From: Nitratireductor soli
GTDB lineage: Bacteria > Pseudomonadota > Alphaproteobacteria > Rhizobiales > Rhizobiaceae
Length of the DNA: 64,000 bases
Assembly (NCBI RefSeq): GCF_001050155.1
Contig: NZ_LFVY01000003.1
Coordinates: forward strand, 186,001-250,000
Reading direction: 5' to 3'
Every line of letters begins with the position of its first letter. Positions within the stretch are counted from its first letter, which is position 1. Shown here in pieces: positions 7,648-27,300 of this stretch. The translations under genes were made by a program, and so were the position numbers. The notes below the pieces were generated by a model that had not been told where the DNA came from, made no database searches, and worked only from the letters and a program-made list of their open reading frames with translations.

Positions 7648-8147
7648 ACCGAGACCGGACTGTCGACCAAGATGGCCCGACTTCGGGGACGTGCGCCACG
7701 CGGCGAGCGCTGCCGGGCCAGCGTACCGCATGCCATTGGAAGACCACCACCTTAACAGGCGCGCTGCGGCTGACGGGCATGACCGCCCCCCCGTTCGTCT
7801 ACGACGGCGCCATGAACGGCAACGTCTTCCTGGCATATGTCGAGCAGGTGCTGGTCCCGACCCTGTCGGAGGGCGGCATCGTCGTGATGGGCAACCTGCC
7901 CGCCCACAAGGCCGCCGGCGTTCGCGGCGCGATCGAGGCGGCAGGCGCGAGCTTGCTCTACCTGCCGCCCTACAGTCCCGACTTCGATCCGATTGAGAAC
8001 GCCTTCTCAAAGCTCAAGGCGCTGCTGCGCGCCAAAGCCGAAAGAACCATCGCAGCGCTGTGGGACACCGTCGGATCGGTCCTCGAACTCTTCACTCCCG
8101 CAGAATGCGCAAACTACTTCAAGGCCGCCGGATATGACCTAGATTAA
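7648..8147 (+). pseudogene. IS630-family transposase remnant (N-truncated, frameshifted)
   Basis: The C-terminal part of an IS630-type DDE transposase. Homology runs from about 7648 ([13 protein letters not shown]) and breaks at about 7731, where one base is missing before the HWKTTT block. It resumes in another frame to the stop at 8147. The helix-turn-helix half is absent. Two catalytic acids appear lost: the first block reads TETG instead of DETG, and the second reads [10 protein letters not shown] instead of VVMDNL. The final PIENAF glutamate remains. It is therefore dead and old enough to have drifted. Confidence 0.85.
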
Positions 8148-17352: not shown

Positions 17353-17485
17353 GTGAGTACACAGAGATTTACCCCAGAATTTAAAGAAGAAGCCGTTCGG
17401 CAGGTGGTTGAACGTGGCTATGGTGTTCCGGATGTCGGAGCGCGTTTGGGTGTGTCGGCGCATAGTCTGTACAAATGGGCATCAT
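17353..17485 (+). pseudogene. IS3-family OrfA fragment
   Basis: The first about 45 codons encode RFTPEFKEEAVRQVVERGYG and LGVSAHSLYKWA, the helix-turn-helix start of IS3-family OrfA. GGAGGC precedes the GTG start. Homology stops abruptly at about 17485, and the frame then reads into unrelated sequence to a stop at 17565. OrfB and the rest of the element are missing. The break lies about 125 bases upstream of nadQ. Confidence 0.8.
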
Positions 17486-17611
17486 CTGTCTGGATCGCAC
17501 CGCTAACGCGATCGCCTGCCTCGTCGCCGTCTTGCTCCGGTGTTTCACAGCGCTGCTTGCCCTGATACACCCTCGTACCAGCGGCGCCTTTGGGTGGCAT
17601 ACGAGGTTGGA

Positions 17612-18550
17612 ATGAACGCGAGCGACGACATCGACATGCGCCACGAAGTGGAGGTGGAGCTGATCGCCCTGGTGGCGGCAATGGCCGAGAGCCAACCCGT
17701 GGCGTTGACCGTCAGGCAAGGAACCGCCCTGCCCTCCGGCCCGTTCGAGCTTGGGCATCGTTCCCTCCAGGAGGGGCTTCGCGGCTGGGTGAGGCAGCAG
17801 ACGGGGCATCCGCTCGGTTACATCGAGCAGCTCTATACGTTCGCCGACCGCGACCGCATCGCCAACGGACAGACGCGTCGCACCATCTCCATCAGCTATC
17901 TGGGTCTTACCCACGACGACGGCGCCGAGCGCAAACAGGACTGGCGAGGCTGGTACAGCTATTTTCCCTGGGAAGATCACCGGTCCGAGCCGCCCCCGGT
18001 CATCGGGCACACCATCCTGCCGCAGTTGCAAGCCTGGGCCGAAAACGGTGGCGCGGTGGCACGCGAGACGCGGTGGCACCGCACAGCGCTCGCCTTCGGG
18101 TTCGACGGTCGCCCCTGGAACGAGGAACTGGTGCTGCAGCGCTACGAACTGCTTTACGAGGCCGGCCTCGTGGCGGAAGCACTTCGTGGGCACGGCGGCG
18201 GCCATGAGGCACCGCTGCCGGGATGGGAGATGCTGGCCGATCACCGTCGTATCCTGGCGACGGGCATTGCGAGGCTGCGCACCAAGATCAAATACCGTCC
18301 CGTCGTCTTCGAGCTGATGCCGCCGGAATTCACGCTCCTGCAACTGCAGCGCACGGTCGAGGCGCTCGCCGGGAGGCTGGTCCACAAGCAGAATTTCAGG
18401 CGGCTGATTGAACAGCAGGAACTGGTCGAGGAGACGGGTCAGACCACCGCCGAGACCGGCGGACGGCCCGCCAAGCTGTTCCGCTTCCGTCCTGCGGTGC
18501 TGGTGGAGCGAACTGCCGCAGGCACGAAACTGCCAATAGCGCGGGCTTGA
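17612..18550 (+). CDS. nadQ: NadQ-type transcriptional regulator of NAD biosynthesis
   Basis: A 312-residue protein of the alphaproteobacterial NadQ family (COG4111): a degenerate Nudix-like N-terminal domain without a catalytic Nudix box, and a C-terminal winged helix (about 230-305, with TLLQLQRTVEALAGR and KQNFRRLIE). By family precedent it senses a nicotinamide nucleotide and represses the nadABC operon directly downstream. An ATG at 17612 follows GAGG. The frame is open further upstream into DNA scarred by an IS3 fragment, so the native promoter may have been altered. The next gene, nadA, starts 65 bases after the stop. Confidence 0.85.
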   Translation: MNASDDIDMRHEVEVELIALVAAMAESQPVALTVRQGTALPSGPFELGHRSLQEGLRGWVRQQTGHPLGYIEQLYTFADRDRIANGQTRRTISISYLGLTHDDGAERKQDWRGWYSYFPWEDHRSEPPPVIGHTILPQLQAWAENGGAVARETRWHRTALAFGFDGRPWNEELVLQRYELLYEAGLVAEALRGHGGGHEAPLPGWEMLADHRRILATGIARLRTKIKYRPVVFELMPPEFTLLQLQRTVEALAGRLVHKQNFRRLIEQQELVEETGQTTAETGGRPAKLFRFRPAVLVERTAAGTKLPIARA

Positions 18551-18556
18551 CATCTC

Positions 18557-18603
18557 TTATGCTCATAGTAAGCATATATATGTTATACTCGTTTTGAGCA
18601 TAA
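18557..18603 (+). promoter_or_regulatory. putative NadQ operator upstream of nadA
   Basis: TTATGCTCA at 18557-18565 and its exact reverse complement TGAGCATAA at 18595-18603 flank an AT-rich centre. An additional AGCATA half-site at 18571-18576 forms TATGCT-N7-AGCATA with the first arm. The site lies between nadQ and nadA, immediately before the nadA ribosome site (AAAGGAG). Symmetry and position fit the autoregulated NadQ operator; binding is inferred. Confidence 0.7.
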
Positions 18604-18615
18604 AGGAGACCAGGC

Positions 18616-19590
18616 ATGCTCGATGCGCCAGCACCAATGGATGTGCTCTATGAAAAGGTGAAGCGCGTGATTCCGTCGGTCGAATGGCCGGTCTTTGTCG
18701 AAGACATTGATGCAATTCTCGAGCTGAAACGGCAGCGCAAGGCCGTCATCCTGGCGCACAATTACCAGACGCCGGAGATATTCCACTGCGTGGCCGACAT
18801 CGTCGGAGACAGCCTGGCGCTCGCCCGCAAGGCGGCCGGCACCGAAGCCGACGTGATCCTGCTTGCCGGCGTGCATTTCATGGCCGAGACGGCGAAGCTG
18901 CTCAATCCCGAGAAGACCGTGCTCATCCCGGATTTGGAAGCCGGCTGCTCGCTGGCCGAATCCGTTACCGCCGAAGACGTCCGCCTCTTGCGACAACGCT
19001 TTCCCGGTATTCCGATCGTCACCTATGTCAACACGTCTGCCGCCGTGAAGGCGGAGTCCGACATCTGCTGCACGTCGGGCAATGCGCGCGCGGTCGTGGA
19101 ATCGCTGGGTGTGCCGCGCGTCATCATGCTGCCCGACGAATATCTAGCAAGGAACATTGCCGCCGAGACCAATGTCGAGGTCATCGCATGGACAGGTCAT
19201 TGCGAGGTTCACGAGCGCTTCACGGCCGATGATATTCGCGAACTGCGCGATACCCATCCCGATATCATTGTCCTCGCCCATCCCGAATGCCCGCCCGAGG
19301 TGGTCACCGAGGCGGACTTTTCCGGTTCGACGGCTGCCATGTCGGACTATGTGGAACGACAAAAGCCGCGGCACGTGGTGCTGATGACGGAATGCTCGAT
19401 GAGCGACAACGTCGCGGTGGCGCATCCGGACGTCGAGTTCGTGCGCCCGTGCAATCTCTGCCCGCATATGAAGCGGATCACGCTCGCCAATATCCGCGCC
19501 GCACTCGAGGAAAACCGGCACGAAATATCGATTGATCCGCGGATCGCCAGGCGCGCACGAAGCGCCGTCGAAAGGATGCTCGCCATATGA
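18616..19590 (+). CDS. nadA: quinolinate synthase A
   Basis: A 324-residue [4Fe-4S] enzyme condensing iminoaspartate with dihydroxyacetone phosphate to quinolinate. The three cluster cysteines are placed as in the family: C111 (AGCSLAES), C196 (TGHCEVH) and C282 (NLCPHMK), spaced 85 and 86 residues. The substrate motifs AHNYQ and [10 protein letters not shown] are present. GGAG precedes the ATG. It overlaps the nadB remnant start (ATGA). The enzyme looks intact although its usual partner NadB does not. Confidence 0.95.
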
Positions 19591-19757
19591 AACGTGATTT
19601 CGGGACGCTTGCCGGCCGACCGGTGACCGACGGCGGCGGCTTGGCCGGGCTGATGACGGCGCCGCATCTCGCGCCGGAACCGGTGGTGCTGATCTCCAGG
19701 CTGGCGGCGCGGGCGCTTGCTGACACGCCGGCCCTGTGCCTTGAACGGAGCGCCTGA
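19587..19757 (+). pseudogene. nadB: nadB remnant (L-aspartate oxidase, large internal deletion)
   Basis: A 56-codon frame overlaps nadA by 4 bases, exactly where nadB normally starts, and encodes LAGRPVTDGGGLAGLMTA followed by PHLAPEPVVLISR. This is the N-terminal FAD-binding start of alphaproteobacterial NadB. It then runs straight into a short tail and stops 1 base before nadC. About 450 residues of the roughly 500-residue enzyme are missing, and the dinucleotide-binding start reads VTDGGGLAG instead of V-I/V-V/I-GGG. It cannot make iminoaspartate. The deletion is in frame, so nadC translation is preserved. Confidence 0.85.
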
Positions 19758-19758
19758 G

Positions 19759-20619
19759 ATGATGCGAATCTCGCCCCTTCCCTCGATCATCATCGAGCCG
19801 ATCGTTCGCGCCGCCCTTCTGGAAGACCTTGGCGGGGCGGGCGACCTGACCAGCGATGCGATTGTCCCCCTCGAGTTCCCGGCTGTGGCGACATTGACGG
19901 CGCGGCAGCCGGGCATTGTCGCGGGTCTCGACGTCGCCGCGCTGGCCTTCAGTCTCATCGACCCATCGATCAAAATGGCAGTCGCGTTGCCAGACGGCAG
20001 CGCGGTCGCGGCGGGCGAGACGATCGCCACAATGAGTGGCCGCGCGCGCGGCCTGCTCACCGCCGAACGCACGGCGCTGAACTTCCTCTGCCACTTGAGC
20101 GGTATCGCCACCGCGACGGCGATGCTGGTCGAGGCAGTGCACGGACACAAGGCAAGGATCGTCTGCACCCGCAAGACGACGCCCGGCCTGCGCGCACCGG
20201 AGAAACATGCTGTGCGGGCGGGTGGCGGCTCCAATCACCGTTTCGGCCTTGATGACGCAATCCTCGTCAAGGACAATCACATCGCCATTGCCGGTGGTGT
20301 TCGCCAGGCGGTCGGGCGTGCGCGAGCCAATGCCGGTCACATGGTCAAGATCGAGGTCGAGGTCGACACCCTCTCCCAGCTCGAAGAGGTTCTGGGGCTC
20401 GCCGTCGATGCGGTGCTCCTCGACAATATGCCCCTGGACGAACTCGCACGCGCCGTGATGATCGCGGACGGCCGCGTGGTCACAGAGGCCTCCGGCAGCA
20501 TCACCGCAGCGACCGCGGCAGCCGTTGCCGCCACCGGCGTCGACCTGATCTCCGTCGGCTGGCTCACCCACAGCGCGCCGATCCTCGACATCGGACTGGA
20601 CATTGTAGCCGTCGACTAA
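19759..20619 (+). CDS. nadC: nicotinate-nucleotide diphosphorylase (quinolinate phosphoribosyltransferase)
   Basis: A 286-residue enzyme converting quinolinate and PRPP to nicotinate mononucleotide. Family blocks appear in order: ALLEDLGGAGDLTSDA, ERTALNFLCHLSGIAT, the active-site CTRKTTPGLR with EKHAVRAGGGSNHR, KDNH, and the C-terminal SVGWLTHS. It begins 1 base after the nadB remnant stop, so it remains in the nadA operon. Confidence 0.94.
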   Translation: MMRISPLPSIIIEPIVRAALLEDLGGAGDLTSDAIVPLEFPAVATLTARQPGIVAGLDVAALAFSLIDPSIKMAVALPDGSAVAAGETIATMSGRARGLLTAERTALNFLCHLSGIATATAMLVEAVHGHKARIVCTRKTTPGLRAPEKHAVRAGGGSNHRFGLDDAILVKDNHIAIAGGVRQAVGRARANAGHMVKIEVEVDTLSQLEEVLGLAVDAVLLDNMPLDELARAVMIADGRVVTEASGSITAATAAAVAATGVDLISVGWLTHSAPILDIGLDIVAVD

Positions 20620-20808: not shown

Positions 20809-21594
20809 TTATGGCCGCGTGTCCTTTGGCTGCGCGGCAACGGTCTGAAGCAACGTGCGCGCCGATCCGACGAGAAGGCCCACATCGACCGCGCCGGCAA
20901 CGAAACGATAGCCCCAATCGCGGTAGCGCACGGCGTCTTCAGCCTTTGTCGCGAGAATACCGGGAACCTTGCCGGCCGCCGCGATGCGATCGGCGGCTGC
21001 CCGGATCGCTTCCTGGACGTCGGGGTGGGCCGGGTTGCCGAGATGTCCCATCGAGGCCGAGAGATCGGACGGGCCGATGAAAACACCGTCGACGCCATCC
21101 ACCGCCGCTATCTCCTCCAGCCGCGCCATTGCCTGCGTGGTCTCGATCTGGACGAGCACGCAGATCTCGGCGTTTGCCTTCTTGAGATAGTCCGACGCCA
21201 TGCCGTAGCGACTGGCGCGGGTGGAGCCGGCAACCCCGCGGATGCCTTCCGGCGGATAGCGCGTCGCACGCACGGCGGCCTCCGCCTCCTCCGGTGTCTC
21301 GATAAAGGGCACGAGCACGGTCTGGACTCCGATGTCGAGCAGCTTCTTGATCAAGACCTTGTCGTTCCATGCAGGCCGCGCCACGGCGGACGCCGTACCG
21401 ACAGCAGCCGCCTGGAGGATCGGCTGCAGACCGGCGATCTCGATTGGCGAATGCTCGGTGTCGAACAGCATCCAGTCGAAGCCGACGAGCGATAGCGCCT
21501 CGGCGGCGACGGGGCTCGCAAGCGTGCTCCACAGACCCCACTGCGTCTCGCCGGCCAGGAGCCGCGCCTTGAAGCGGTTTTCCGGCATTGTCAT
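20809..21594 (-). CDS. hpaI: HpcH/HpaI-family aldolase
   Basis: A 261-residue class II pyruvate aldolase, the last step of homoprotocatechuate-type meta-cleavage (4-hydroxy-2-oxoheptanedioate to pyruvate and succinate semialdehyde). Present are WGLWSTLASPVAAE, the DWMLFDTEHSP metal-site approach, QIETTQAMARLEEI and FIGPSDLSASMG with its substrate-binding serine/aspartate. The start overlaps the hydratase stop (ATGA). It is the distal gene of the minus-strand aromatic operon. Confidence 0.9.
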   Translation of the reverse strand: MTMPENRFKARLLAGETQWGLWSTLASPVAAEALSLVGFDWMLFDTEHSPIEIAGLQPILQAAAVGTASAVARPAWNDKVLIKKLLDIGVQTVLVPFIETPEEAEAAVRATRYPPEGIRGVAGSTRASRYGMASDYLKKANAEICVLVQIETTQAMARLEEIAAVDGVDGVFIGPSDLSASMGHLGNPAHPDVQEAIRAAADRIAAAGKVPGILATKAEDAVRYRDWGYRFVAGAVDVGLLVGSARTLLQTVAAQPKDTRP

Positions 21595-22373
21595 ACGAAC
21601 TGCACCGCGACCGAGCCGAGCGGACCGAAATCGGCATGCAACGTGTCGCCCTTCGCCGCCCAGACGGGCCGCGTGAAGGAGCCCGACAGCATCAGGTGGC
21701 CGGGTTCGAGCGTCGTGCCGAAGGGGGCGAGCTTGTTGGCGAGCCAGGCGATCGCCATGGCCGGGTGACCGAGAACGCCGGCGGCAAGCCCGGTCTCCTC
21801 GATCTCGGAATTGCGGTAGAACACCGCGCCGACCCAGCGCAGGTCGACCGCGTCAGGGCGCACCGGCCGGCCGCCGAGCACGATCGCGGCGGCTGCGCCA
21901 TTGTCGGCCACGGTGTCGTAGATCCTGCGCGGCTCGGTGACGCGCGCGTCGATAATCTCGATCGAGGGCACCACCCATTCGGTGGCGCGCAGCACATCGA
22001 CGAGGCCGATGCCGGGGCCTTTCAGCGGCTCCTTCAGGATGAAGGTCAGTTCCGGCTCGACGCGCGGCACACAGAAGGAATCGAACGGCACCTTGGCGCC
22101 GTCGGAGAAGACCTGGTCATCGAAGAGATAGCCGTAATCCGGCTCGTCGATCTTGGACGACGCCTGCATCGCCTTCGAGGTCAGGCCGATCTTGTGGCCG
22201 ACGATCTTTCGCCCGGCCTTGACGCGCTCGGCGGCGACGGCCGACGAGATCGCGTAGGAATCCTCGATCTGGATGTCCGGGAACATCTCGGAGGGACGCA
22301 GGCCCTGCTTCTTGGTGCGGTGGCTTTCGAGCAGGGAGGCGACCGCCTCCGCGCGTTGGGCTTCGGTGAGCAT
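21591..22373 (-). CDS. hpaH: 2-oxo-hept-3-ene-1,7-dioate hydratase
   Basis: A 260-residue member of the MhpD/HpaH hydratase-decarboxylase family. Motifs include KIGLTSKAMQ, the metal ligands in VEPELTFIL, and VVPSIEIIDAR near residue 140. It hydrates the double bond of 2-oxohept-3-enedioate to give the substrate of HpaI encoded next. It starts 7 bases after the dehydrogenase gene and overlaps hpaI by 4 bases. Confidence 0.9.
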   Translation of the reverse strand: MLTEAQRAEAVASLLESHRTKKQGLRPSEMFPDIQIEDSYAISSAVAAERVKAGRKIVGHKIGLTSKAMQASSKIDEPDYGYLFDDQVFSDGAKVPFDSFCVPRVEPELTFILKEPLKGPGIGLVDVLRATEWVVPSIEIIDARVTEPRRIYDTVADNGAAAAIVLGGRPVRPDAVDLRWVGAVFYRNSEIEETGLAAGVLGHPAMAIAWLANKLAPFGTTLEPGHLMLSGSFTRPVWAAKGDTLHADFGPLGSVAVQFV

Positions 22374-22380
22374 GATGTCC

Positions 22381-23835
22381 TCAGAGCTTGATGCAGACGT
22401 TGCGGAGTTCGGAATAGAACTCCATGGAATGGATGCCGCCCTCGCGGCCGATGCCGCTCGCCTTCGAGCCGCCGAAGGGCGTCCTGAGATCGCGCAGGAA
22501 CCAGCAATTGACCCAGGTGATGCCGACCTCGACTTCGGCCGCCACACGATGCGCCCGCGTCAGATTCTCCGTCCAGATCGAGGTGGCGAGCCCGTAGGGC
22601 GAGTTGTTGGCGAGTTCGATCGCCTCCTCCTCGGTGTCGAACGGGGTGAGATGCGTGCAGGGGCCGAAAATCTCCTCGGTGATGATCGGCGATGTTTCCG
22701 GCAGACCGGTCCAGACGGTCGGTTCCACCCAGTAGCCGCCCTCGTAGCCCTGCAAGTCGGGCACGCCGCCGCCGACGATCACGTTGGCGCCTTCGGCACG
22801 GGCCTTGTCGTAGTAGGAGAGAACCTTGGCGCGGTGCTCGGCCGAGATCAGCGGCCCCATCGTCGTCGTCTTGTCGAAGGGATCGCCGAAGCGGTAGCCG
22901 CGCGCCTTGTCGGCAAGGCCTTCCGCGACCCGGTCGAAGATGCCGCGCTGCACATAGATGCGCTCGGTGCCGAGGCAAACCTGGCCACTATTGGCGAAGC
23001 AGGCGCGGCCGATGCCTTCCATCGTCTTGTCGAAGTCGGCGTCGTCGAAGATGATGCCGGGATTCTTGCCGCCGAGTTCGAGCGAGATCGGGCGCACGCC
23101 GCGCGCGGCGGCCGCCATGATCGCCTCGCCGGTGCGGGTCTCGCCGGTAAACGTGATGCCATCGACATCCCGGTGCGTGGTCAGGAACTCGCCGGCGCAA
23201 CCCGGGCCACGTCCATGAACAACGTTGTAGACGCCGGCCGGGATGCCGACCTCGTTCATCACTTCGCCCAGAAGCGTCGCCGTCGCCGGCGTTTCCTCTG
23301 AAGGCTTGACGACGACGGTGTTGCCGCAGGCAAGCGCCGGCGCCACCTTCCAGGTCATCAGGAGCAGCGGCAGGTTCCATGGGCAGATGACGGCGATGAC
23401 GCCGCGCGGCGTGCGCATGGCATAGTTCAGCGCCCCGGCCCCGTCCGGTGTCGGCAGGGCAAAGCTCTCGGTGCCGAGCGTCGCCACCTGGTCGGCGAAG
23501 ACATTGAAATTCGCGGCACCGCGCGGAATGTCGATGTGACTCGCGATCGAGCGCGGTTTGCCGGTGTCGCGGATCTCTGCGGCAAGGAAATCTTCGAAGC
23601 GGGCGTTGATGCCGTCGGCGAGCTTGCGCAGCAGGCCGATGCGTTCGGGCACGCTCATGCGGCCCCACGGGCCTTTCAGCGCCGCGCGCGCTGCACCGAC
23701 CGCCTGGTCGACCTGCGCCTTGTCGGCGGCGCGGATCTCGCCGATCACCTCGCCGGTGGTCGGAAAGTGGTTGGCAAAGCCGTCACCCCGGCCCGGGACG
23801 AACTGGCCGTCGATGAAGTTCCTGAATTCGGTCAC
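22381..23835 (-). CDS. hpaE: 5-carboxymethyl-2-hydroxymuconate semialdehyde dehydrogenase
   Basis: A 484-residue NAD-dependent aldehyde dehydrogenase. The catalytic glutamate is in ISLELGGKNPG and the nucleophilic cysteine in FANSGQVCLGTER; the NAD-binding FTGETRTGEAI is between. The GTG at 23835 (NVTEFRNFI) gives the family length and overlaps the upstream aldolase gene by 4 bases. It oxidises the ring-cleavage semialdehyde. The HpaE assignment rests on its hpaH and hpaI neighbours as well as overall similarity. Confidence 0.88.
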   Translation of the reverse strand: MTEFRNFIDGQFVPGRGDGFANHFPTTGEVIGEIRAADKAQVDQAVGAARAALKGPWGRMSVPERIGLLRKLADGINARFEDFLAAEIRDTGKPRSIASHIDIPRGAANFNVFADQVATLGTESFALPTPDGAGALNYAMRTPRGVIAVICPWNLPLLLMTWKVAPALACGNTVVVKPSEETPATATLLGEVMNEVGIPAGVYNVVHGRGPGCAGEFLTTHRDVDGITFTGETRTGEAIMAAAARGVRPISLELGGKNPGIIFDDADFDKTMEGIGRACFANSGQVCLGTERIYVQRGIFDRVAEGLADKARGYRFGDPFDKTTTMGPLISAEHRAKVLSYYDKARAEGANVIVGGGVPDLQGYEGGYWVEPTVWTGLPETSPIITEEIFGPCTHLTPFDTEEEAIELANNSPYGLATSIWTENLTRAHRVAAEVEVGITWVNCWFLRDLRTPFGGSKASGIGREGGIHSMEFYSELRNVCIKL

Positions 23836-24524
23836 GTTGCGCTGCCCTTTTCTTGCGGAGCCTTTTCCGGGTCTGCCGCTGTCAGATAATCCCACATGCG
23901 TTCGACGATGCGCCCGGCCCTGGTCGCCCGCTCGGCCGCAGCCTCCGGCGCGATTACGGGCGCGTCCGCCAGCCCGGCCATCCGGGCGGCAAGCTCCACC
24001 CGGCACATGTCTTCGAGATACCAGGCGAGCACCGTCGCCTCCTCGAGGCTCGCCCCCGCCGTCACCGCGCCGTTACCGCGCATCAGCAGGCCGGCGCTCA
24101 CTCCCATCGCGTCGACCGCGCCCTCGGCGCGGGCATCGTCGCGGATCAGCTGGACATCATTCCAAAGCCCTACTTTCGGGGCGAAATAGGTCCCGAATCC
24201 GTGACGCATGGCCGGCACGGTCGAGGCCGCGCCGAGCGCCATCGCGTTGGGGCCCATGAAGCGCACCACGCCCTTGGCCTCGGGTCGGCGTCGGTAGATC
24301 TGCTGGTGCAGCCGCACCTCGCCGAGCACGCCTTCGGGCAGCGGCCCCTCGACCGGCACCTCGACGCAGACAGCACCCGGCGCGATCAGCCCCATCGGCT
24401 CGGGCGGGCAGACGAGAAAGCGCTTCGTATCGATGCGCGCAGAACAATGGCCGTAGGCATGAACGAGGTTCGCGCGGGCAAGCGCGCGGGCAGCCAGCCG
24501 GACGGTGAGAGAGAGGTCCTGCAT
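23832..24524 (-). CDS. class II aldolase/adducin-fold protein with altered metal site
   Basis: A 230-residue protein of the class II aldolase/adducin fold: the N-terminal GHCSARID block aligns with GNISVR, and the glutamate near 69 (EVRLHQQIY) is kept. The usual zinc pair HxH is replaced by RFM at about 88-90 (VVRFMGPNAMAL), and the third histidine block reads RGNGAVTAG instead of RNHG. It therefore cannot bind Zn2+ as L-fuculose-phosphate aldolase does. Homologues occur in meta-cleavage clusters with the same variant as far as I recall, so a different chemistry or a decarboxylase role is possible. Confidence 0.75.
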   Translation of the reverse strand: MQDLSLTVRLAARALARANLVHAYGHCSARIDTKRFLVCPPEPMGLIAPGAVCVEVPVEGPLPEGVLGEVRLHQQIYRRRPEAKGVVRFMGPNAMALGAASTVPAMRHGFGTYFAPKVGLWNDVQLIRDDARAEGAVDAMGVSAGLLMRGNGAVTAGASLEEATVLAWYLEDMCRVELAARMAGLADAPVIAPEAAAERATRAGRIVERMWDYLTAADPEKAPQEKGSAT

Positions 24525-24528
24525 CGCG

Positions 24529-25404
24529 CTACCTGTCTTCGCCCTTGCTGTCGCCGAACGCCGCGATGCGCGGCGCCGCGCCCCACTTGCAGAAACCCTT
24601 CGGCTCGAAATGGAACTGCCGGTCGCGCCACAGCGGCTCGTCGTGGATCTCGCAGACCCCTGTCGAGTACTCGAACGTCATCCCGTCCGGTCCGGTGAAG
24701 TAGAGGAACTCCGCCGAGGAGGTTGGGTGCTGGCCGGGGCCGAAGGTGACGTTGACCTGGTTATCGGAGACGAAATTGAACGAGCGCTGGATGTCGTCCG
24801 TGCCGCCGACCTGATGGTTGATGTGCTGGATTCCCGCCTTGTGGAAGGGAAATAGCGCGATCGAATGGTGGATCGTGCCGAGCCGCATCAGCGGTGCATC
24901 GCCGATGCGGTCGGAGACGCGGGCGTTGCAGACGCGGGTCCAGAAGGCTTCGTCGCGGGCGGCGTCGGTGGTGCACAGGCCCACATGCGAGAAGCCGGTA
25001 ATGCCGGCGTCGCGGGTGCCGTGGTAGCGGCGGCCGGTCGTCTCGGGGCGCACCACGAACTCGATGGCGTTGCCGGTCGGGTCGCGGAAGCCGATGAACT
25101 CGCGCACCAGCCGCGCCTCGCATTCCTGGCGCGTGCCGTAATGGACATGATGGCCGAGCGCTTCCAGCGTGGCGGCGGCCGTCTGCAGGTCCTTGCCGCG
25201 GCCGAGTTCGAAGGCGGTCACCTGGTCGCCCGGATCGCCCTCGACATAGCACAGCGTATGGGCGCGCTCATCGGACTTGAAATAGGTCGCGCCGCGGCGG
25301 CGCTCGGAAACCTCGAGGCCGAGGATGTTGGTGGCAAACCATTCCGCGCCAGCCAGATCCTTGGTGCCGAGGCGGCAGTAGACGACGTCCTTCAGTTCGA
25401 TCAT
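24529..25404 (-). CDS. type I extradiol dioxygenase (VOC superfamily), catalytic copy
   Basis: A 291-residue two-domain vicinal-oxygen-chelate protein like catechol 2,3-dioxygenases. In the C-terminal domain the Fe(II) ligands are visible: H140 (FSHVGL), H194 (GIQHINHQVGG; H197 is the alternative) and E245 (TFEYSTG). The spacing is close to the XylE/BphC families. It should open the ring of a catecholic acid next to its hydroxyls to feed HpaE, HpaH and HpaI. It overlaps the paralogue gene upstream by 4 bases. The substrate could be homoprotocatechuate or another catechol. Confidence 0.85.
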   Translation of the reverse strand: MIELKDVVYCRLGTKDLAGAEWFATNILGLEVSERRRGATYFKSDERAHTLCYVEGDPGDQVTAFELGRGKDLQTAAATLEALGHHVHYGTRQECEARLVREFIGFRDPTGNAIEFVVRPETTGRRYHGTRDAGITGFSHVGLCTTDAARDEAFWTRVCNARVSDRIGDAPLMRLGTIHHSIALFPFHKAGIQHINHQVGGTDDIQRSFNFVSDNQVNVTFGPGQHPTSSAEFLYFTGPDGMTFEYSTGVCEIHDEPLWRDRQFHFEPKGFCKWGAAPRIAAFGDSKGEDR

Positions 25405-26264
25405 CGCGCATCTCCTCCGAGGAACTCCGGCTGCTCGGTTACCGAGCCCCACATTCCGTGGCTCTGCGCGGTGTCGGCGAACTGGCGCGGGCCGCGCGCT
25501 TCGATCTGCGGGCCCTTCTCCATGCCGGTCATGTAGCTCATCAAGAGGCCGCGAGGTCCGCGCGTCGTCACGTACATGGCGCCGGAGGCGGCCTGCCGGT
25601 CCGGGCCGGCGACGACGGGAAGCTGGCTCTTCTGGATGAAGTACCAGTTGCGCATCAAGCTGTCCTTCGCATCGACCTCGAAGGCGGCGCCGAGGATGCC
25701 GTCGCGGGCGGACGGATAGAGCGCGATGCGGTGGTGCGCCTCGTCGAGCGACAGATAGGCAACCTCGCCCACCCAATCGGAAACCGTGAGACCGAGGCCC
25801 TTGACGAAGAATATCTCGTTCGCCGCCACGTCGGTGCAGGCAAGCTGGACGGCGCTGAAATCGGTGATGCCGGCATCGCGCGGACCGTGGTAGCGCCAGC
25901 CGGACTCCAGCGGCCGCCAGACGATCTCGACGGTCACGCCGTTCGGTGCGATCACCGCAAGCACGGCCTTGGCCTGACGCTGGCGCGCCGCGTCGGCATT
26001 GAGGAAGGCGGGCGCGTATCCGATCGTCTCGAGCCGCGCCTTGAGCGCGCCGAGATCCTCCTCGCGCGCCACGGTGAGCGCGATCGCCTCGCCGTCGCCT
26101 GCCGTCGAAAGGCAAAGCGCGTAGTTGCGGTCGTCGGAGCGGAACATGGCGCGCGCATCGTCGCGGTCGGCAGGCTGGAGGCCGAAAACGTCCCGTGCAA
26201 AGCGCGCGGCTTCGTCGAGATTGTCGACGTTCACACGCAGGTATCGAAGGTCACGGTATTTCAT
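25401..26264 (-). CDS. extradiol-dioxygenase-fold paralogue lacking metal ligands
   Basis: A 287-residue VOC protein clearly paralogous to its downstream neighbour (shared YHG-x-RDAGIT-x-FS, HH-x-IAL, GP-x-G-x4-Y-x-TG). Aligning the two, the three iron ligands become A138, G192 and S243, so it should not bind catalytic iron. The start at 26264 is the second of two ATG codons, 6 bases after AGGAG. The 4-base overlap with the active copy suggests matched amounts, as for a structural partner subunit, chaperone or substrate binder. That role is inference. Confidence 0.8.
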   Translation of the reverse strand: MKYRDLRYLRVNVDNLDEAARFARDVFGLQPADRDDARAMFRSDDRNYALCLSTAGDGEAIALTVAREEDLGALKARLETIGYAPAFLNADAARQRQAKAVLAVIAPNGVTVEIVWRPLESGWRYHGPRDAGITDFSAVQLACTDVAANEIFFVKGLGLTVSDWVGEVAYLSLDEAHHRIALYPSARDGILGAAFEVDAKDSLMRNWYFIQKSQLPVVAGPDRQAASGAMYVTTRGPRGLLMSYMTGMEKGPQIEARGPRQFADTAQSHGMWGSVTEQPEFLGGDAR

Positions 26265-26285
26265 CATCGGCTCCTTGCATTCGGT

Positions 26286-26313
26286 GCGCACGGGCGGCGG
26301 GCCGCCCATGCGC
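26286..26313 (-). promoter_or_regulatory. stem-loop after the second dctP
   Basis: GCGCACGGGCGG (26286-26297) and CCGCCCATGCGC (26302-26313) form a 12-bp stem with one wobble and a 4-base loop, 19 bases after the dctP stop on the minus strand and before the VOC gene. It is similar in place and strength to the hairpins after the other binding-protein genes. Confidence 0.6.
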
Positions 26314-26331
26314 GGGTCCAAAGTCGGAAAC

Positions 26332-27300
26332 TCACATGCCGGAGGCTTCGGCTTCAAGCTCCTTGAGGAGTGGCGCTTCCTCGCGCCAGCGGGCATACCA
26401 CTGGTCGATGGCACCGCCGAACCAGTCGCGACCGACTTCGGTCACCGGAACCTTGGTCGTCTCGAGCTTGGCGCGGTAGTCGGCGTCGATCTGGGCATAG
26501 CTGGCGACCATCGTATCGAGCCTGGTGGCGAAGACTTCCTGGACGACCGCGCGGTCGGCTTCCGCGATCGTGCCCCATTTGCGGCCGGACGCGATCGCCG
26601 CCATCGGGAACATCATGTGGTTGGAGATGGTGATCGAGCCGGCGTGGTCGAAATACTTCGAGTTCCAGGTGCCCTCGACGTCGATCTGCATGCCATCGAC
26701 CTGGCCGTTGGCGAAAGCGTCGTAGAGCGCGGGCAGCGGCATCGGCGTCGGCGCGGCGCCAAGGCCTTCCCAGAAGGCGAGTTCGGGCGCGAAGGGGATG
26801 GTGCGGATCTTCTTTCCCTTCAGATCCTCTACCGTCTTGGTCTCGCCGCGGGTGACGATCATCCGCATGCCGGCCATGCCCCAGCCGAGACCGGTGAGGC
26901 CGAAATTGTTCATGTCCTCGAGCAGCTTCGTCGCTGTCTTGCCCTTAAGCAGCTCACGTGCGCCTGCGACGTCCTTGACGATGTAGGGCGCGAGGAAGAT
27001 GCCGTAATTGGGATCACGGTTGGCGAACTCGCCGAGCGTGAAGAAGGCGAAGTCCATCGCTCCGGTCTGGAGCTGCTGGAGCATCTGCGCCTCGTTGCCG
27101 AGCTGGCCCGAGGGGAAGATCAGGATGTCGACCCGGCCTTCGGTGCGGGTCTTGATTTCCTCGGCTGCGGCGGTCGCGGTCACCGTCCATTGGTGCGGCG
27201 GCGGCGTAATCAGCCCGAGCCGGTACTGCTCGGCAGCCGCCGTGCCGGCGGTCATTGTCAGAATGGATGCCGCAAGCGCGGCGCCTGTGAAGCGTTGCAT
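26332..27300 (-). CDS. dctP: TRAP transporter solute-binding protein (DctP family)
   Basis: A 322-residue periplasmic binding protein with a signal peptide (about 1-23, ending TAAAEQ). The DctP pattern DLKGKKIRT at about 160-168 carries the carboxylate-binding arginine. It heads the meta-cleavage operon (dctP, two VOC genes, aldolase-like, hpaE, hpaH, hpaI), so the ligand is probably an aromatic carboxylate or a precursor. Its membrane partners are encoded upstream at 28358-30198 in a separate transcription unit on the same strand. Confidence 0.88.
   Translation of the reverse strand: MQRFTGAALAASILTMTAGTAAAEQYRLGLITPPPHQWTVTATAAAEEIKTRTEGRVDILIFPSGQLGNEAQMLQQLQTGAMDFAFFTLGEFANRDPNYGIFLAPYIVKDVAGARELLKGKTATKLLEDMNNFGLTGLGWGMAGMRMIVTRGETKTVEDLKGKKIRTIPFAPELAFWEGLGAAPTPMPLPALYDAFANGQVDGMQIDVEGTWNSKYFDHAGSITISNHMMFPMAAIASGRKWGTIAEADRAVVQEVFATRLDTMVASYAQIDADYRAKLETTKVPVTEVGRDWFGGAIDQWYARWREEAPLLKELEAEASGM

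Follow-up and report, generated by a model that had tools for sequence, protein, structure and literature searches.

The question raised by this locus is whether the NAD biosynthesis pathway of Nitratireductor soli continues after its first enzyme, L-aspartate oxidase (NadB), has been lost from an otherwise intact operon, and what could then supply iminoaspartate to quinolinate synthase (NadA). The window, which is the whole stretch of 64,000 nucleotides of N. soli DNA that was analysed, carries nadQ, nadA and nadC with a short remnant of nadB between the last two. The features of the operon are given below.

17612–18550, + strand: nadQ, presumed repressor of NAD biosynthesis, 312 aa from its ATG (ORF open from 17540)
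18557–18577, + strand: second, imperfect NadQ operator-like site, 2 mismatches to the consensus given in PMC5343134
18583–18603, + strand: NadQ operator, 0 mismatches to TTATRCTCNNNNTGAGYATAA, from the same consensus
18616–19590, + strand: nadA, quinolinate synthase, 324 aa, intact (TIGR00550, 319 bits; NF006878, 354 bits; both over cut-off)
19587–19757, + strand: nadB remnant, 56 codons, product of an in-frame internal deletion, 4-base overlap (ATGA) with nadA
19587–19700, + strand: part of the remnant aligning with the NadB N-terminus, 38 codons; the V/I/L-class positions 14, 15 and 26 are T, D and P
19746–19757, + strand: original 3' end of nadB, CGGAGCGCCTGA, with the likely Shine-Dalgarno sequence CGGAG of nadC 8 bases before its ATG
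19759–20619, + strand: nadC, nicotinate-nucleotide diphosphorylase, 286 aa, intact (TIGR00078, 314 bits, over cut-off)

The nadQ product matched the Pfam domain NrtR_WHD (PF21906; E=2.6e-22) and was 59–74% identical to the nadA-adjacent genes of the nearest rhizobial loci; the name and role of NadQ are those described in PMC5343134. A scan of the whole window for NadQ sites with up to 3 mismatches returned 4 matches, all at 18557–18577 and 18583–18603, compared with 0.04 expected by chance. Both nadA and nadC are the sole copies in the N. soli genome and lie on contig C23. Just upstream of nadQ, a transposase gene fragment of the IS66/IS3 type (HTH_Tnp_1) could be seen at 17353–17565 (+), and another of the IS630 type occurs at 7779–8147 (+). 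Next to nadC, a meta-cleavage type cluster occupies 20809–24006 and 25401–26414 on the − strand; it includes an HpaI-like and an HpaH-like gene, both just under the cut-off, a 2-hydroxymuconic semialdehyde dehydrogenase gene over its cut-off and, farther away, a weak extradiol-dioxygenase-like gene.

The first-pass annotation had described the frame at 19587 as a nadB cut to 56 codons at its normal place, and this was borne out: the ORF is present, its stop lies one base ahead of the nadC ATG (19759), and approximately 89% of the gene is gone. Residues 6–40 of the remnant matched the L-aspartate oxidase model NF005701 with 26.6 bits (E=1.9e-6), and a Pfam search of the remnant assigned no family. 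When the remnant was compared with 107 loci by tblastn, it aligned with the NadB N-terminus of rhizobial nad operons, examples being Mesorhizobium (L028), with 63% identity across 38 aa, and Aminobacter (L033), with 76% across 34 aa; judged by these alignments, a chance resemblance to NadB is very unlikely. The remnant itself does not qualify as an L-aspartate oxidase, as its score is far from the curated cut-off of 528 bits, 3 of the 12 conserved columns of the dinucleotide-binding N-terminus are changed, and the rest of the flavoprotein, including the active site and the C-terminal domains, is absent.

Comparison of the final 12 bases of the remnant with the 3' ends of intact nadB genes from 13 relatives revealed a match of 12/12 in 2 and of at least 11/12 in 6 of them, and the remnant end was the sole one reaching 11 among the 880 TGA-ended 12-mers on the + strand of the window. 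Judged by this match, the last 12 bases are the genuine nadB 3' end, and their retention implies that about 450 codons were removed from the middle of the gene in frame. This rules out a simple 3' truncation; the in-frame deletion proposed earlier can thus be refined to an internal one in which nadB has kept its own last bases. Within the limits of the assembly, the deletion is real and is more precise than first described. In a free local alignment, the last 60 bases of the remnant never scored above the shuffle maximum against any of the 13 intact nadB genes (e.g. 32 versus 37 for L096), so at the 3' side a nadB origin is shown for the last 12 bases only, and the codons between codon 38 and these bases had no assignable match. 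The motif CGGAGYGCCTGA, with 1 mismatch allowed, was found once in the whole window against 1.63 expected and is thus not rarer than chance; it is telling solely through its position at the frame end. The same motif followed by ATG within 8 bases was present at 13 of the 212 loci searched, corresponding to 8 distinct places after repeats of the own genome, of the congener G009 and of two others had been pooled by reading. From its position, CGGAG at the remnant end is probably the nadC ribosome-binding site.

A full-length nadB elsewhere in the genome had been named as one observation that would overturn this picture. The N. soli assembly is 5.1 Mb long in 58 contigs, 99.48% complete and 0.3% contaminated, and a family search of it found no nadB over the cut-off. 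The best candidate, which scored 349.5 bits and so stayed below the cut-off of 452.75, was rejected since it is SdhA, which scored 910.7 bits with TIGR01816 (cut-off 727.35). Besides SdhA, the search gave two matches of about 20 bits; the remnant was not among them, so very short pieces could escape it. In the congener G003, nadB-model matches to a likely SdhA gene (C2:569429–571049) were split in two, resembling a broken frame.

The state of the remnant was then set against that of its operon partners. A column was taken as conserved when its residue was shared by 95% or more of the other rows, with V, I and L pooled; departures were counted per row, and rows below the identity or length limits set in the script were left out. 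Among the 12 conserved NadB columns, the remnant differs at 3 (14 to T, 15 to D and 26 to P), compared with at most one departure in each of the 91 other NadB rows. The NadA of the window departs at 0 of 143 columns (57 rows), NadC at 1 of 113 (38 rows; V/I/L class to M) and NadQ at 1 of 124 (30 rows); a stricter first version of the test gave 0/97, 1/88 and 1/84, respectively. Together with the equivalog matches of NadA and NadC over their cut-offs, this assigns the two proteins to quinolinate synthase and quinolinate phosphoribosyltransferase, and the earlier statement that both carry all key residues is supported at the level of conserved columns. Fisher's test of the remnant against NadA and NadC together (3/12 versus 1/256), which takes columns as independent, yielded p=2.7e-4; with the two adjacent changes taken as one event, the value was 4.5e-3. 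The pN/pS values of nadA in pairs with the window (0.18–0.22) lay inside the range of intact-operon pairs (0.15–0.23), and those of nadC (0.26–0.38) were within or slightly above it (0.17–0.35). For the nadB N-terminus, where only 36–39 codons could be compared, window pairs gave 0.46–0.85 against 0.30–0.52. These results can be read as drift of the remnant over a time when nadA and nadC did not drift. By this unequal decay, nadA and nadC appear to have remained under selection after the loss of nadB, an argument for a pathway that still runs, on another source of iminoaspartate.

Candidates for such a source were found by a profile search of the genome, which revealed two aspartate dehydrogenase (AspDH) homologues.

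Contig C33, 88264–88896: AspDH homologue
Contig C57, 96371–97015: AspDH homologue

The search for nadX suggested in the first-pass annotation thus succeeded in part, as two NadX-like proteins are present; neither of them reached the cut-off of the NadX model TIGR03855 (159.2 and 144.6 bits against 206.55). Both exceeded the 177-bit cut-off of the AspDH subfamily model NF009828, with 241.6 and 251 bits, and contain the Asp_DH_C domain, and the C33 protein also passed the equivalog NF009827 (229.7 bits; cut-off 226). A sequence search against solved structures aligned the C33 protein with those of Thermotoga maritima (1J5P/1H2H) and A. fulgidus (2DC1). The His at the position of residue 189 of 2DC1, which we take to be catalytic in AspDHs, is kept in both proteins, and on these grounds both fall in the general AspDH family. 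Both also carry a GxGxxA motif, which PMC5554190 ties to NADPH preference in one enzyme. Neither gene lies beside nad genes. The C33 gene sits behind the gene of a thiamine-diphosphate enzyme (PRK07064 model over cut-off) and before an aldehyde dehydrogenase-like gene (by eye), and the C57 gene adjoins branched-chain-type ABC transporter-like genes (by eye), about 13 kb from a 3-hydroxyanthranilate dioxygenase gene; these neighbours, mostly judged by eye, look catabolic. The region of that dioxygenase on C57 (L141:13021–20000 and L134) also holds FAD monooxygenase-like, alpha/beta hydrolase, aldehyde dehydrogenase and DapA-like genes amid LysR regulator- and ABC transporter-like genes (by eye), and is perhaps a catabolic cluster. 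In a tree of AspDH proteins, from which three short rows (L119, L121 and L210) were left out, the C33 protein groups with the copies of five congeners; one step out are the proteins of G052, a genome without nadB, and of Chelativorans, in which nadB is present.

Within the genus, the nad operon is patchy, and most members are without it. Among the 10 genomes searched, own included, nadA was found in 2 and nadC in the same 2, namely N. soli and G009, so that 8 lack both, and only G009 had a nadB over the cut-off. In G009, the operon is an intact nadQ-nadA-nadB-nadC with other neighbours (judged by eye), and the NadA tree neither supported nor excluded a sister relation between it and the operon of the window. 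A nicotinate phosphoribosyltransferase (NAPRTase, pncB) over the cut-off is present in all 10, which provides a salvage route. AspDH-like genes occur in 9 of the 10 genomes and thus in 8 of the 9 congeners, and of these 8 only G009 has nadA or nadC. With AspDH-like genes in 7 congeners that have neither gene, NAD synthesis cannot be the usual role of these enzymes, and recruitment is possible.

A wider survey was conducted on 60 genomes, own included, of which 32 have nadA. In 29 of these nadB is present (28 over the cut-off, and G025 just under it with 445.6 bits beside nadA), in G044 it runs off the contig end, and 2 have none, i.e. N. soli and G052, a genome of the same order with a clean nadQ-nadA-nadC operon (L197:4779–7943). 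A NadA scan of named genomes gave at least 590 places, and among the best 80 of these nadC could be seen at 66; the gap between nadA and nadC was below 20 bases at 5 of the 66 (L044, L045, L049, L082 and L083) and at least 1,419 bases at the other 61. The five loci belong to two Reyranella metagenome-assembled genomes (MAGs), Acidisphaera sp. S103, a Spirochaetales MAG and a Proteobacteria MAG. No nadB over the cut-off was found in the five genomes, four of which, as MAGs, are weak evidence of absence. The best flavoprotein match of Acidisphaera (L155) was below the nadB cut-off and had no family match at the coordinates used. At a further locus, L052 of Ornithinimicrobium sediminis (Actinomycetota), the NadQ, NadA and NadC homologues are close to alphaproteobacterial ones, which may reflect transfer or contamination.

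AspDH was present in 6 of the 7 genomes with nadA and without nadB, 5 of which had been chosen because their operon lacks nadB, compared with 9 of 34 with both genes (p=0.006). In this count, G044 was left out, G025 and G067 (449.4 bits), with genes just under the cut-off next to nadA, were taken as having nadB, and G068 and G069 were taken as without AspDH. The value changed to p=0.014 without the own genome and to 0.035 when Reyranella was also counted once; inclusion of the weak matches of G068 (66 bits) and G069 (21 bits) gave 11/34 and p=0.014, 0.029 and 0.062. In the unselected 60 genomes, the proportions were 2/2 and 7/29 (p=0.077), and when the His was demanded they became 3/7 and 9/34 (p=0.40). 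The association of AspDH with nadB absence is suggestive at best. This His is replaced by S, V or Q in all four Reyranella AspDH-like proteins (L160, L161, L165 and L166) and in L158 of G063, where it is Q. The presence of AspDH as proof of replacement was rejected, considering its occurrence in 9 of the 10 genus genomes and the loss of the wider enrichment once the His is required.

The reading that we hold to be a shade better than even is that nadB was lost in frame, that nadA and nadC are still selected, and that iminoaspartate comes from another enzyme, for which the C33 or C57 AspDH is the best guess. Replacement of NadB by another enzyme is plausible and, of the readings considered, the likeliest. 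By this mechanism, the deletion would have kept the nadA-overlapping start and the last codons with the likely nadC ribosome-binding site, so NadQ-controlled nadA and nadC could still be made. The remnant, having no catalytic part, may at most help to carry translation over from nadA to nadC as a short bridge. Selection on nadA and nadC after the loss is suggested by the unequal decay, and one of the two AspDHs, as the best guess, would supply the iminoaspartate of NadA by oxidising L-aspartate with NAD(P)+, as expected from homology. The non-orthologous replacement put forward at first pass therefore gains from the undecayed nadA and nadC beside a decayed remnant and from the two AspDH homologues; it loses from their scores below the TIGR03855 cut-off, from congener AspDH genes that mostly occur without nadA and nadC, and from the salvage route. 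A further step, which we offer tentatively and consider rather unlikely, is that the operon has been caught midway in the change from an O2-using aspartate oxidase to an unlinked AspDH, with the remnant as a 56-codon bridge carrying the nadC ribosome-binding site and the clean nadA-nadC operons as the end point.

The main rival is salvage auxotrophy, a substantial possibility that we nevertheless rate well below even: nadB was lost recently, the de novo route is dead, NAD is made from nicotinate or nicotinamide, and the surviving nadA and nadC are leftovers yet to decay. The NAPRTase in every genome of the genus and the lack of nadA and nadC in 8 of the 10, which suggests a genus generally without the pathway, agree with this, as does the loss of nadA or nadB with a need for niacin in Shigella and E. 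coli, as described in PMC8207962 and PMC7373316. The three changed positions of the remnant, against none in NadA and one in NadC, fit poorly with a dead pathway, except if they arose as a single burst that accompanied or preceded a recent deletion; should the deletion be recent, little can be concluded from the conservation of nadA and nadC. The NadQ operator is intact as well, and a perfect site would count for a continuing pathway. NadC could also have been kept for quinolinate that does not come from NadA, such as quinolinate taken up from the surroundings or formed after cleavage of 3-hydroxyanthranilate. The product of 3-hydroxyanthranilate 3,4-dioxygenase closes to quinolinate spontaneously, and the C57 gene for this enzyme is over its cut-off; this would leave the equal conservation of NadA unexplained, and the congeners G005, G006 and G007 have a dioxygenase over the cut-off without nadC, so the enzyme looks catabolic. 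We rate this explanation as improbable. An assembly or sequencing error, or a mixed culture, is conceivable for a draft in 58 contigs and is the least probable of all, as a collapse would not place substitutions at conserved residues of the remnant or join the ends in frame with the true nadB 3' end, and the two matches of about 20 bits were all that the genome search gave besides SdhA, very short pieces aside.

The locus may be compared with several known systems. Operons of the type nadQ-nadA-nadB-nadC in Mesorhizobium, Rhizobium, Chelativorans and G009 share with it the gene order, a NadQ-type regulator, a nadB start at the nadA end and, in most, a GGAG near the nadB 3' end before nadC; they differ in their full-length nadB of about 500 codons. 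Among 237 plasmid records matching positions 19100–20300 of the window, none covers 80% of this interval in one place, so none has the short junction. The nadA-nadC operons of G052, Reyranella, Acidisphaera sp. S103 and the Spirochaetales and Proteobacteria MAGs resemble the window in their gap of less than 20 bases and in having no nadB over the cut-off, but they belong to other lineages, no nadB remnant could be seen in them, and nadQ was not found in L045 and L082. In T. maritima, NadX, an aspartate dehydrogenase of the TM1643 type, replaces NadB in NAD synthesis. N. soli has in common with it an AspDH homologue, nadA and nadC without nadB, whereas its AspDH genes are not adjacent to the nad operon, fall short of the NadX cut-off and occur also in congeners without nadA and nadC. 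The inactivation of nadA or nadB in Shigella and E. coli (PMC8207962 and PMC7373316) entails the same loss of the aspartate-to-quinolinate step; the need for niacin was tested there, and N. soli differs in its conserved operon partners. Among the matches listed in a literature search, which covered titles and the starts of abstracts mostly from outside subscription journals, none dealt with nadB loss in a nadQ operon with AspDH replacement. The replacement of NadB by NadX and the loss of nadB are already known; what is new is an in-frame, expression-sparing remnant beside conserved partners.

The locus offers a clear test of how a cofactor pathway gets by once its first enzyme is gone. A strain that needs niacin would make it a case of the ordinary early decay of an operon. 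If growth without niacin is seen, the substitute for nadB should be one of the two named genes, and a comparable solution may be expected for the other nadA-nadC operons without nadB; calling such genomes niacin auxotrophs for want of nadB would then be wrong.
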